From Sphaerochaetaceae bacterium (GTDB lineage Bacteria; Spirochaetota; Spirochaetia; Sphaerochaetales; Sphaerochaetaceae), in contig JAQQAI010000040.1 in NCBI GenBank assembly GCA_028532915.1, forward strand, positions 1-36,432: DNA of 36,432 nucleotides. The letters run 5' to 3'. The notes beneath the pieces were generated by a model. That model did not search any database and was not told the origin of the DNA. It was given only the letters and a program-made list of their open reading frames with translations. The position numbers were made by a program, and so were the translations under genes. Every line of letters starts with the position of its first letter. Position 1 is the stretch's first letter. Below are positions 27,245-35,512 of the stretch, one piece after another.

Positions 27245-27333
27245 ATTCAAAATTCTCCTTGTAATGAAAATCTAATACATTATAAAAAATTCTCAAAACA
27301 CTTTTTTAAAATCACCGATTGAAGCGCCTGGAC

Positions 27334-27372: not shown

Positions 27373-27771
27373 ATGAAACAGATACACGTAGCAGCAGCAG
27401 TCATAGAAAAGGATAATAAGATATTCGCCGCACAGAGAAAGGATGCCGGGGAACTGGCTCTCAAATGGGAGTTTCCCGGAGGTAAGCTCGAAGAGGGTGA
27501 ATCGGGTGCTCAGGCAATCGTCAGAGAGATCCGTGAGGAACTCTCTGTCGACATCGTAGTGAAAGGACACTTTCTGAGAGTCTCGCACCAGTATGAAAGT
27601 TTCCACATCACGATGGATGCCTACCTATGCAAATTAACACGGGGAGATATCAGGTTGAACGAACACGTAGATTCATTTTGGTGCCCTGTAGAACAACTGA
27701 TGGACCTTGACTGGGCCGCAGCCGACATCCCTATCGCACAGAAGCTGCACAGTACAGCAATGGAAAGATGA
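27373..27771 (+). CDS. MutT-type Nudix hydrolase
   Basis: A 132-residue Nudix protein, the length of MutT. The Nudix box runs from G37 (GGKLEEGES) to V59, with the metal-binding REIREE intact. The usual Gly after EEx is Ser here (EELSV). The family hydrolyses oxidised or unwanted nucleoside triphosphates such as 8-oxo-dGTP. Homology begins at MKQIHVAAAV, so I reject the longer start at 27319. Its stop overlaps the ATG of the helicase gene by four bases (ATGA), so the two proteins are translationally coupled and probably act together in DNA repair or defence. Confidence 0.9.
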   Translation: MKQIHVAAAVIEKDNKIFAAQRKDAGELALKWEFPGGKLEEGESGAQAIVREIREELSVDIVVKGHFLRVSHQYESFHITMDAYLCKLTRGDIRLNEHVDSFWCPVEQLMDLDWAAADIPIAQKLHSTAMER

Positions 27772-30719
27772 ACAAAGACCAATCACCTTCAGCAGATCTT
27801 CCTCTCTCGCTTACCAGCGGCTTCATTGATTACAGAACACAATCCCCTCTTGCCTACAGACCATCGCTCATCCTCAATGATCCTCCCCGTTCTAAGGTGA
27901 TCCATACACTCATAAGAGAACTCAACGAATGTACCTCATTCGAATTTTCGGTCGCATTCATTACCACAGGCGGAGTGATGATGCTTTTGCAGTCACTTTA
28001 TGATGCACAGAAACGGGGTGTGAAAGGAAAGATCCTCACTTCAGATTACCTTAACTTCACAGAGCCTGAAGCCCTTCGTATTCTGTACGACAAATTCGAT
28101 AATATCGAAATACGAATGTACCGTTCGGATCCGTTTCATGCAAAAGGCTATATATTCCACCACGAAGAAAAGTGCTCATCGGTGATCATAGGCTCTTCGA
28201 ATATTACAGATAACGCACTTGCGAGAAACAGAGAATGGAATGTCCGGCTGGTGTCTCTTGATGAGGGAGAGCTGCTGAGAAAGACCCGCGAGGAATTCAC
28301 CCTGGCATGGAATAAAGCTTATGAGGTCTCACCGGCTCTCATCGCTCAATATGAAACTCTCAGAGAGAACATAAAACAGAAACAACCATCCCCATCGGTC
28401 CTTCCTGAAGAGGAAGAGACCTTTGACGAGAAGAAGATCGTCGCGAATTCTATGCAGAAGGAGGCCCTTCGCTCTCTTGATGCACTTAGAGAAAGGGGGG
28501 AGAACAAGGCGATACTGATCTCTGCTACCGGTTCAGGAAAGACGTTTCTGAGTGCGTTCGATGTAAGACGATTCGCTCCGAGGAAGTTCCTGTTTATCGT
28601 ACACCGCCAACAGATAGCCCGCGAATCTATGCACAAATTCCGTCAGATTCTCTCGAACAGCATCAAAGCGAGTCTTCTCGGAGGATCAAACCATTATGAC
28701 AGAGATGCCGTATACACCTTCGCCATGATTCAGACTCTAAGCAAAGATAGGACTCTTCATTCATTTGCCCGTGATGAGTTCGATTACATCGTCGTCGATG
28801 AAGTTCACAAAGCCGGAGCTCCGAGTTATGAGAAGGTTCTCTCCTATTTCACTCCGAAATTCCTTCTGGGGATGACGGCGACCCCCGAACGCAGCGACGG
28901 ATACGATATCTTTCGTCTGTTCGATCATAATATCGCATATGAGATACGGCTCAATCAGGCACTTGAGGCAGACCTTCTCTGCCCGTTTCATTATTACGGC
29001 ATCAGCGATCTTGCTATCGATGATAAACACTATGAGAAACTCTCTTTGTTCGCCCTCCTCAAAGAGGATGAGAAGGTCCGTCAGATCGTGGAAGCAATAG
29101 ACCGCTATTCGGTCCCGAGCATCAGGCGCAGAGGACTGATCTTCGTTTCACGTAACAAAGAAGCATCGATCCTGAGTGAAAGGCTCAATAAAATGGGGCT
29201 TTCCACTCTTGCTCTCAGCGGAGAAGACAGTGACGATGCAAGAAATGAGGCCTTCGACAGACTCGAAAACGGAGAGCTCGAATACCTTATAGCCGTCGAC
29301 ATCCTCAATGAAGGAATAGATATCCCATCTCTCAATCAGATCATCATGCTGAGACCCACACAGTCGGCCATAATCTTCATCCAGCAGATGGGACGGGGAC
29401 TGAGAAAACATAAAGGAAAGAAATTTCTCACCGTCATAGATTTCATCGGGAATTATCAGAATAACTATCTCATTCCTATCGCACTGTTCGGAGACACTTC
29501 CTATAAAAAGGACAATCTGAGAAAACTTGTCAGCAGCGGCTCTCTGGGAATACAAGGGGTATCGACAGTCAATTTCGATGCGGTCGCGAAAGAGAGGATA
29601 TATCAGTCGATCAACACAGCTTGCATCACTCATAAAAAGCTGCTTAAAGGAGAATATATCAGGGTAAGGGCCAAGATCGGTCGCATACCGAAGATGACAG
29701 ACTTTATCACCCATGGAGTGATGTCTCCTCTTCTGTTTCTTGAGAAATTCAAGAATTATTATTCATTCAAAGTCGAGGCTGAAAAGGAATTTCTTAATAC
29801 ATGTACCGATAAGAATCAGATTCAAAATGATTTCCAGATGGATCTCAGCGACATACATCTGAGAAGCCTCAACTTCTTTTCCCGCGTGCTCGCCTTTGGT
29901 ATCCGTCCATACGAGACTATGATCATCGCCCATCTGATAAAACAGGAAACACCTCTTTCGTTTGAAATATTGAACAATGAAACAGAAAGCCTATACGGCT
30001 TCAGGCTGTCGCGCGACAGCTATGATAGTGCTTTGAGAATCCTTTCGAACCAGTTCTTCCCAGAAGGAGCCAGAAACGGGTATGGAAACATCTCGTACTG
30101 CACCAGAAGGGGCGATCTTGTATATATAAGTGCCAGATTCAAAGATCTTCTTTCAAACAGTGTCTACAAAGATGAACTTGAGGACATCATCGCCATTTCA
30201 AAGCATGAGTATGAAACATCGATGTTACCGAAACGCCAAGATGATGATCTCATCTTGTATCATAAATATTCCAGAGAAGAAGTGTGCAGGATGCTCAACT
30301 GGACAAAGGACGAAAGCGGGACAATATTCGGCTTCAAGGTTCACAGGGAGACTATGACATGCCCCATATTCGTAACCTATCATAAAAAAGAAGATCAAAT
30401 TGATTCTGCAATCAATTATTATGATCGTTTTGAAAATCCGGAAACCTTCATATGGGAAACAAGGACAAGGGTGAAAATCGATTCGTCGGAACCGAAGGCG
30501 ATCAGAAATGAAGAAGGACCGCTGAGAAAGCTTCTCTTTATTCAAAAGAACAATGATGAAGGAAAGAAGTTCTACTATATGGGAGATGTATCATTCATCT
30601 CTCATGAGCAGCATACCAAAGAAAATGATAAAGGGGAGACTTTGCCCGTAGTGAGAATGCGCTTTGCCATGCACAAATCAGTTCCCCCGGATTTGTACGA
30701 GTACATCGAAACCAAATAA
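27768..30719 (+). CDS. PLD-like nuclease/SF2 helicase fusion (DUF3427-type architecture)
   Basis: A 983-residue protein. Residues about 40-190 are a phospholipase-D-like domain with H124-x-K126 and GSSN (142-145), one half-site per chain so a dimer would be needed. Residues about 225-570 are a superfamily 2 helicase: Walker A ATGSGKT (253-259), DEVH (344-347), TATP (370-373), motif VI QQMGRGLR (539-546). From about 600 to the end is a large domain that resembles the DUF3427 region of similar proteins. Expected activity is ATP-driven DNA translocation coupled to strand cleavage. Coupled to the upstream MutT gene by a 4-bp overlap. Related proteins are found both as chromosomal repair factors and in defence islands; neighbours here are metabolic, so the role is undecided. 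Confidence 0.88.
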   Translation: MNKDQSPSADLPLSLTSGFIDYRTQSPLAYRPSLILNDPPRSKVIHTLIRELNECTSFEFSVAFITTGGVMMLLQSLYDAQKRGVKGKILTSDYLNFTEPEALRILYDKFDNIEIRMYRSDPFHAKGYIFHHEEKCSSVIIGSSNITDNALARNREWNVRLVSLDEGELLRKTREEFTLAWNKAYEVSPALIAQYETLRENIKQKQPSPSVLPEEEETFDEKKIVANSMQKEALRSLDALRERGENKAILISATGSGKTFLSAFDVRRFAPRKFLFIVHRQQIARESMHKFRQILSNSIKASLLGGSNHYDRDAVYTFAMIQTLSKDRTLHSFARDEFDYIVVDEVHKAGAPSYEKVLSYFTPKFLLGMTATPERSDGYDIFRLFDHNIAYEIRLNQALEADLLCPFHYYGISDLAIDDKHYEKLSLFALLKEDEKVRQIVEAIDRYSVPSIRRRGLIFVSRNKEASILSERLNKMGLSTLALSGEDSDDARNEAFDRLENGELEYLIAVDILNEGIDIPSLNQIIMLRPTQSAIIFIQQMGRGLRKHKGKKFLTVIDFIGNYQNNYLIPIALFGDTSYKKDNLRKLVSSGSLGIQGVSTVNFDAVAKERIYQSINTACITHKKLLKGEYIRVRAKIGRIPKMTDFITHGVMSPLLFLEKFKNYYSFKVEAEKEFLNTCTDKNQIQNDFQMDLSDIHLRSLNFFSRVLAFGIRPYETMIIAHLIKQETPLSFEILNNETESLYGFRLSRDSYDSALRILSNQFFPEGARNGYGNISYCTRRGDLVYISARFKDLLSNSVYKDELEDIIAISKHEYETSMLPKRQDDDLILYHKYSREEVCRMLNWTKDESGTIFGFKVHRETMTCPIFVTYHKKEDQIDSAINYYDRFENPETFIWETRTRVKIDSSEPKAIRNEEGPLRKLLFIQKNNDEGKKFYYMGDVSFISHEQHTKENDKGETLPVVRMRFAMHKSVPPDLYEYIETK

Positions 30720-34075: not shown

Positions 34076-35482
34076 TTATGAACTTTTCCGTCTTCTTTTT
34101 CTTCCAGGATCAGGGGCTCCCGGCCAGCTCTTATGCTCCATCTCGACAGAACGCGGATTTTCGCGCCATAGCCTGTCGGCGACAGGCGCCCAGGCGGCAG
34201 CTGCATCATCGGTCTTGGCTGCCAGATCTTCCACACTCTCGGTATGAATATACTCGGTGGAAACTGCCTTGCTCTCATTCACCATCTTCCGCAGATATTG
34301 AGGATTATCCAGAAGAGGACACGGTCTCAGATAGTTCTTGTTGAACGGCTGATGAGCCCGATACTGCTGGAAAAGCTGAGAGTGGAGAACTTCCAGGAGA
34401 GAGTGATCCTTGATAGATATGTCCGAATAATGGATGAAGGCGCACGGTTCGACATCACCTCTCGCATTTATGTGGAAATAGTTCCTTCCTCCTGCGATAC
34501 ATCCGTATACATATTCTCCGTCATTCCAGAAGTCCATCAGGAATATCGGCTTCGTCTTTCTGAATGTTCTCACCTGATGATACATGTACTCTCTCTGCTC
34601 GGGTGTCGCAATCAGTGAAGGAACAGCGTTTTTACCCACAGGGATATAGGTGAACAGCCATCCGAAGATCGCTCCGAGATCGATCATCGAATCGATATAC
34701 TCTTCACTTCCTACCGTCTCGCTGTTTTCACTGTGATAACAGGAAGAGAAACCGAACGGAACACCTTTCTTTCTCAACATCTTCATTGCATGCATCATCG
34801 TATCATAGGAACCCTCTCCTCTTCGCGCATCGGTCTCCTCTCTGCTTCCTTCCATACTGATCGCGAGGGTGAAGTTGCCGACCTCTCTCAGCTGTTCGGC
34901 AAATTCCTCATCGATGAGCGTCCCGTTGGTAAATGCCAGGAAATAGCAGTCATTATGTTTTCTTGCCAGTTCTATAAGATCCTTCCTTCTCACCAGAGGC
35001 TCTCCACCCGAGTAAAGGTACATGTAGATTCCCAACTCCTTCCCTTCGGTTATGATCCTGTCGATCAGTTCATTATCGAGAGAGTCTGTTCTGCCGTATC
35101 CTTCTGCCCAGCACCCTTTACAGTGAAGGTTGCATGCTGTGGTGGGATCGATCAGAATCGCCCACGGAATGTTGAGATCATACTTGTCTCTGTTATCTCT
35201 CAGTTTCTGATTTCCTTCCCATGCCGCATTCAGCACCAGGTTGTCGACCATCTTGTTGAGACAGTTCGGATCGATCGTATCGATGATATTATGGACCAGT
35301 TTGTAATTGTTGTCCCGTCTGTTCCAAGAGGTCCTGAAGTTGTTCAACTGCTTCTTATGAGTCTCATTACCCATAAAGTATTCGACCATCGGCAGTATAC
35401 GCTCAATGATCCCGTCAGGATTTTTCTTTATCACCTTCATCATCGTCATGATAGTCGAATGCATCGCATCTCTTTTATTCAT
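34076..35482 (-). CDS. Radical SAM enzyme with a SPASM-like C-terminal region
   Basis: A 468-residue radical S-adenosylmethionine enzyme. The cluster motif is C117-x3-C121-x2-C124 (ACNLHCKGCW), followed by YSGGEPLVR (SAM contact) and TNGTLIDEEF. Later cysteines (YGCIAGG, VEPCAF, RPCPLL) suggest an auxiliary iron-sulfur cluster as in SPASM proteins. An N-terminal region of about 100 residues precedes the barrel, and the tail is basic (GRKRRRKSS). Start ATG 35482 has GGAGG five bases upstream; a GTG four codons earlier is part of that site. No peptide substrate gene is seen. Co-directional with the SPW gene, separated by a hairpin. Confidence 0.9.
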   Translation of the reverse strand: MNKRDAMHSTIMTMMKVIKKNPDGIIERILPMVEYFMGNETHKKQLNNFRTSWNRRDNNYKLVHNIIDTIDPNCLNKMVDNLVLNAAWEGNQKLRDNRDKYDLNIPWAILIDPTTACNLHCKGCWAEGYGRTDSLDNELIDRIITEGKELGIYMYLYSGGEPLVRRKDLIELARKHNDCYFLAFTNGTLIDEEFAEQLREVGNFTLAISMEGSREETDARRGEGSYDTMMHAMKMLRKKGVPFGFSSCYHSENSETVGSEEYIDSMIDLGAIFGWLFTYIPVGKNAVPSLIATPEQREYMYHQVRTFRKTKPIFLMDFWNDGEYVYGCIAGGRNYFHINARGDVEPCAFIHYSDISIKDHSLLEVLHSQLFQQYRAHQPFNKNYLRPCPLLDNPQYLRKMVNESKAVSTEYIHTESVEDLAAKTDDAAAAWAPVADRLWRENPRSVEMEHKSWPGAPDPGRKRRRKSS

Positions 35483-35512
35483 ATCATCCTCCACGTATCG
35501 GTATATGAGAGA

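Follow-up and report, generated by a model that had tools for sequence, protein, structure and literature searches.

A Nudix hydrolase gene overlaps that of a SauUSI-type Type IV restriction endonuclease in a Sphaerochaetaceae bacterium and may act on the matching modified nucleotide

The window analyzed here, a 36,432-nucleotide stretch of contig JAQQAI010000040.1 from a Sphaerochaetaceae bacterium, carries two genes that share four nucleotides; both genes, and all features within them, lie on the forward strand. The first (27373..27771, from the ATG at 27373 to the TGA ending at 27771) encodes a 132-aa Nudix protein of the PDC-S07 type, predicted to be a 5-methyl-/5-hydroxymethyl-dCTP pyrophosphatase, and the second (27768..30719, from the ATG at 27768 to the TAA ending at 30719) encodes a 983-aa protein assigned below to the SauUSI-type Type IV restriction endonucleases. 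Their start/stop overlap, ATGA at 27768..27771, is read directly from the sequence. It had been noticed in an earlier sequence-only reading of this DNA, and our analysis confirms it, together with both open reading frames and the domains then recognized. An in-frame TTG is present at 27319, upstream of the Nudix ATG; the homologues start at the ATG of an MKxIxV motif, which in the window is the one at 27373.

The flanking genes encode a nitroreductase, a 2-hydroxyacid dehydrogenase, a 257-aa protein without a family, a membrane pyrophosphatase and a radical SAM protein, so that the surroundings in the window are metabolic and not a defense island. Of eight flanking window proteins compared, none recurs close to either of two homologous pairs, L032 and L033, so the unit occupies different sites in related genomes. 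No cognate methyltransferase gene was found among the scanned neighbors, and PF00145 gave no hits in the window genome. The radical SAM/SPASM protein (34076-35494, reverse strand) resembles the models for prokaryotic viperins weakly, at 33 bits; it is closer to NirJ2/AhbD-type models, though far under their cut-offs.

Pfam divides the 983-aa protein into PLDc_2, ResIII, Helicase_C and DUF3427 domains. It matches the PADLOC mREase_IV model (953 positions) with 764 bits over residues 10-980, and its best match among solved structures is 7CLG, that of SauUSI, with 736 bits over residues 11-980. An AlphaFold model of the protein (mean pLDDT 81) aligns with 7CLG over 797 residues at Z 45.5 and 43% identity, and the next row follows at Z 21. 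Enzymes of this type hold a PLD nuclease, an SF2 ATPase, a coupler and an SRA/DUF3427 region in a single chain of about 950-1000 aa. The window protein has the same elements in the same order, with the HxK, the motor motifs and most pocket residues of SauUSI conserved, and we are nearly certain that it is a Type IV restriction enzyme of the SauUSI type, complete over its length. It differs from SauUSI in its host, a spirochaete relative, and in a Phe that replaces Tyr831 of the pocket. The sequence-only reading had regarded the one-chain PLD-helicase as an unusual fusion, set against the separate proteins of DISARM, and had overlooked the DUF3427 C-terminal region with its modified-cytosine reader. 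That view has to be given up, as a single PLD-SF2-DUF3427 chain is the standard SauUSI architecture (PMC7913695), a known kind of enzyme and no new fusion. DISARM was likewise rejected: the DrmA/DrmB/DrmC set is absent, with only a 27-bit DrmC match and no other Drm among the seven window proteins scanned. NgoAVII and CglI also combine a PLD nuclease with an SF2 motor, but they are built from two subunits and use a B3 domain for recognition (PMC7913695).

SauUSI itself is dimeric and ATP-dependent; its SRA domain recognizes 5-methylcytosine, and its PLD domain cuts DNA while the motor translocates (PMC7913695). It cleaves m5C and hm5C DNA but not m4C DNA, and the cloned enzyme restricts on its own in E. 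coli (PMC3874153), which indicates that a Nudix partner is not needed for cleavage.

The HxK motif of the nuclease domain (H124 and K126; 28137..28145) was located by homologue alignment. Among the homologues covering the site, H124 is found in 79 of 79 and K126 in 79 of 80, and E156 is retained in the window protein. The Glu given after the HxK in SauUSI is variable across the family and is His in the window protein; judged from this comparison, it is therefore unlikely to be catalytic. The Walker A motif of the SF2 motor, ATGSGKT (residues 253-259; 28524..28544), is read from the sequence, and the motif position agrees with the alignment. The DUF3427 region (29874..30707, from Pfam and alignment) comprises the coupler and the SRA-type reader of modified cytosine, the function of the latter being taken from the work on SauUSI (PMC7913695). 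The modified-cytosine pocket is mostly conserved: F856, F868, V869, D886 and W896 of the window protein correspond to Y831, F841, I842, D858 and W868 of SauUSI, with Asp and Trp retained and Tyr831 changed to Phe. The Tyr831 position is occupied by Tyr in 86 of 89 aligned homologues, so the Phe of the window (residue 856, 30333-30335) is unusual, and it may alter the preference between m5C and hm5C.

The pairing of a Nudix gene with a SauUSI-type gene is real and wide. Scanning genome contigs yielded 80 homologous loci from Spirochaetota, Bacillota, Bacteroidota, Cyanobacteriota, Actinomycetota, Pseudomonadota and others. The sequence-only reading had allowed for a pairing confined to this one genome, whereas the pair is present in several phyla. 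A Nudix gene adjoins the helicase gene in 54 of the 70 homologues with enough flank on both sides, being upstream on the same strand in 36, downstream on the same strand in 8, downstream and convergent in 8, and upstream and divergent in 2. On closer look L107 raises the adjacent pairs to 55, and in L036 and L081 a Nudix gene lies within 2 kb. Across the 80 loci, the density of Nudix ORFs at 800 bp or less from the helicase gene is ~105 times that of the remaining flanks, which means that the juxtaposition is not chance. Where the Nudix gene is upstream (37 cases listed), it overlaps the helicase gene or is separated from it by 14 nt or less, measured from the start codon nearest the Nudix stop. 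The existence of four gene orders would argue for selection on the combination rather than for one inherited arrangement.

The same pattern holds in the 296 genomes of the window's phylum, where 15 of 16 SauUSI-type loci have a Nudix gene within about 1 kb, as read from the coordinates. With adjacency labels assigned by hand from locus coordinates, 17 of the 57 high-scoring Nudix genes of the phylum adjoin a SauUSI-type gene, against none among the 93 low scorers listed. Next to homologous pairs, some proteins match models for Gabija, AbiE, Zorya or defense candidates, an observation that has no control set for comparison. A defense-island setting was not adopted, and the window's own neighbors are metabolic.

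The association is wide but not universal. Fifteen genomes whose SauUSI gene has no Nudix neighbor were searched: eight carry a Nudix gene scoring at least 139 bits somewhere in the genome (in one of these, G332, the match has an internal stop), and the other seven have no such Nudix above 60 bits anywhere. We considered whether a MazG-type or other NTPase replaces the Nudix at such loci and found none among the 19 neighbor proteins scanned. Nor do SauUSI genomes avoid m5C methyltransferases, which occur in 19 of 40 of them (nearly all Nudix-paired) versus 124 of 296 genomes of the phylum, with no depletion. The seven Nudix-less genomes, restriction by SauUSI alone and the undepleted m5C methyltransferases all speak against a strict need for the Nudix. 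The adjacency has already been remarked in two papers, neither of which gives a mechanism: a figure legend in PMC7641849 places MutT homologues next to SauUSI homologues in Streptococcus, and in S. suis PDC-S07 and RM type IV were co-localized in 23 of 23 occurrences (PMC12813430).

The pairing extends to the prototype. In an S. aureus record that serves for context only, its SauUSI copy being interrupted, the Nudix gene encoding WP_000755954.1 ends 1 bp upstream of the SauUSI ATG. The Nudix is of the same kind as that of the window, where the two genes instead overlap by 4 nt. WP_000755954.1 contains all 125 residues of 5X1X that are printed in the alignment with the window Nudix, and 5X1X, an S. 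aureus structure deposited as mutator MutT, is the best PDB match of the window Nudix; its gene is thus the one directly upstream of SauUSI. An S. aureus phage record, probably host DNA, has the same gene order with a long SauUSI frame. A linear 30-kb S. aureus 'plasmid' (NZ_CP077890.1) carries two inverted Nudix copies and an interrupted SauUSI, and looks like an assembly or chromosomal fragment.

The window Nudix has a NUDIX domain by Pfam, matches the PDC-S07 model over its full length with 166 bits, and has a confidently predicted fold (pLDDT 94). Both window genes score full length on PADLOC models, PDC-S07 and RM type IV; in PADLOC the Nudix is a candidate on its own, for which no mechanism was proposed. 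The structural ranking of the Nudix model is headed by MutT2 with 5-methyl-dCTP (5ZRO, Z 20.9), with MutT at Z 19.3; these values are too close to decide on a substrate, and the ranking was set aside as a pointer. The characterized 5-methyl-dCTP hydrolases E. coli NudG (Orf135) and mycobacterial MutT2 share the fold, but the tree places them far from the window Nudix, with a long branch for NudG, and MutT2 also digests dCTP (PMC10742078).

In a tree of 138 Nudix proteins over 137 columns, built by a quick search and containing many weak forks, SauUSI-linked Nudix proteins are intermingled with stand-alone high scorers, and 20 ordinary Nudix proteins of the phylum form a separate branch (SH-aLRT 97). 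The B. fragilis protein 3GWY (Q5LBB1) lies inside a 26-row clade (SH-aLRT 95) in which 22 rows are SauUSI-linked, and is 56% identical to one of these. The window Nudix belongs to the same group but to a different sub-clade, which joins that of 3GWY with a support of only 85. The two proteins are ~41% identical and have in common the Nudix box, Y74, F77, W114, A117 and D118, whereas in the ordinary Nudix group position 74 is H or N, position 114 is mostly F and position 117 is S. D118, in the C-terminal base-contact loop, occurs in 75 of 76; the ordinary Nudix proteins of the phylum have Asp there too, so it is not diagnostic. We take this Asp to contact cytosine, as in Orf135. The kcat/Km values of 3GWY are 4.8e6 for 5-Me-dCTP, 4.4e6 for 5-hydroxymethyl-dCTP and 8.5e4 for 5-OH-dCTP per M per s, and its activity on canonical NTPs is much lower (PMC5158307). 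Relatives of 3GWY are rare in Bacteroidales (5 of 393 genomes at E <= 1e-30, a sample that does not include the B. fragilis gene itself), and the two best of them adjoin SauUSI-like or DUF3427-type helicases. By its clade, the likely substrate of the window Nudix is 5-methyl-/5-hydroxymethyl-dCTP. In the accessible literature we found hydrolysis data neither for this protein nor for any SauUSI-adjacent Nudix.

These comparisons bear on the proposal, made in the sequence-only reading, of a repair unit for oxidized DNA, in which a MutT-like enzyme would remove 8-oxo-dGTP beside a repair helicase-nuclease. A remote resemblance of the two proteins to MutT and RadD/XPB motors, respectively, speaks for such a unit. 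However, the window Nudix remains under the MutT 8-oxo-dGTPase cut-offs (TIGR00586, 91.8 versus 97.9 bits; PRK10776, 78.4 versus 148), has Asp118 in the base-contact loop where E. coli MutT has Asn119 and clusters with a 5-methyl-dCTPase, and the large protein matches SauUSI from end to end. We consider this proposal very improbable.

SauUSI targets m5C and hm5C in DNA, and 3GWY, a characterized member of the partner's clade, destroys both matching triphosphates, so the substrates of the two partners would match. The locus probably combines a SauUSI-type enzyme with an enzyme that removes the same modified base from the nucleotide pool. As an overall explanation we somewhat favor a two-gene unit in which the Nudix clears the modified nucleotide that matches the target of the restriction enzyme. 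By full-length homology to SauUSI, for which these steps are experimental, the SRA domain would read 5-methyl- or 5-hydroxymethyl-cytosine in incoming DNA, and recognition would trigger ATP-driven translocation and shredding of the DNA by the PLD nuclease. Degradation of foreign or own methylated DNA may then release modified cytosine into the nucleotide pool; 5-methyl-dCTP is an excellent dCTP analogue that readily enters DNA and may derive from degraded methylated DNA (PMC10742078). The Nudix would keep it out of newly made host DNA, and the restriction enzyme would thereby be spared its own target in the host chromosome. As there is no protective methyltransferase and incorporation of 5-methyl-dCTP would endanger the host, pool cleaning is the simplest role. 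Even so, we put this particular role for the Nudix at a little under an even chance. Slightly more tentative still is the general form of the idea, that SauUSI-type enzymes carry a dedicated nucleotide-level immunity enzyme, a 5-methyl-/5-hydroxymethyl-dCTP pyrophosphatase that blocks salvaged modified cytosine and so prevents self-cleavage.

The same substrate match would also be expected if the Nudix were a second weapon, destroying phage-made 5-hydroxymethyl- or 5-methyl-dCTP while the SauUSI-type enzyme cuts whatever modified phage DNA is made anyway, so that modified-base phages would be attacked at two consecutive stages. The listing of PDC-S07 among defense candidates is in keeping with such a role, and so are the convergent gene orders, which show that fixed co-transcription is unnecessary. 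On the other hand, the monophosphate product could be rephosphorylated by a phage kinase, which would make the reaction futile; related genomes retain the Nudix where the nuclease is lost, and in many genomes the two genes lie apart; and we found no phage test of the Nudix in the literature; we regard this role as unlikely. The earlier suggestion of a small antiphage system that monitors nucleotides pointed in the right direction, toward a Type IV restriction enzyme with a Nudix of a dNTP-hydrolase clade, and it is the comparison with DISARM that fails.

Two genomes of the window's family contain SauUSI remnants beside an intact Nudix gene (L138, 991-1309; L139, 5434-5625). Such loci are what the protective role would lead one to expect, with the nuclease as the costlier half of the unit, although a housekeeping role predicts them too. 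Under the latter the Nudix would be an ordinary sanitizer of dCTP and of 5-substituted or oxidized dNTPs, not linked specifically to the target base; it would travel with mobile defense genes because it compensates for damaged or unbalanced nucleotides when the cell is infected and DNA is degraded. The many stand-alone genes of the high-scoring group in the phylum, with their mixed neighbors, fit independent housekeeping, as does the fold, for which MutT scores a Z close to that of the top match. Against it, the tree places ordinary Nudix proteins from the same genomes on a separate branch, and adjacency to SauUSI-type genes is confined to the high scorers in the phylum comparison. General housekeeping appears to us an improbable account, on a level with the second weapon.

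If the Nudix does clear the matching nucleotide, self and non-self would be kept apart by cleaning of the dNTP pool, a form of protection for which searchable papers gave us no precedent among restriction systems; a search for 'type IV restriction' together with '5-methyl-dCTP' returned no paper, within a partial literature coverage. Type IV enzymes act without a protective methyltransferase, and the pairing makes it directly testable how a cell that has one copes with salvaged methylated nucleotides. It would also give the anonymous defense candidate PDC-S07 a predicted substrate and a partner. SauUSI, which strongly limits the transfer of genes into S. aureus, has the same Nudix neighbor; the structures of SauUSI and of the S. 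aureus Nudix are both solved, and we found no connection drawn between them in searchable papers.

Three further observations concern the neighborhoods of this Nudix group. High-scoring Nudix genes also occur near m5C methyltransferases in genomes of the phylum (L143, L151, L156 and L136). The immediate neighbors of stand-alone members include two Vsr nucleases and one restriction enzyme of the Eco47II type; with the methyltransferases, these neighbors would fit a wider tie of the group to 5-methylcytosine. Finally, an L. plantarum plasmid (NZ_CP028230.1, 2553-7948) carries a run of genes for a Nudix, a SauUSI-like protein, a MazG-like pyrophosphohydrolase and a DNA/RNA helicase-domain protein, possibly placing two dNTP hydrolases in one locus.
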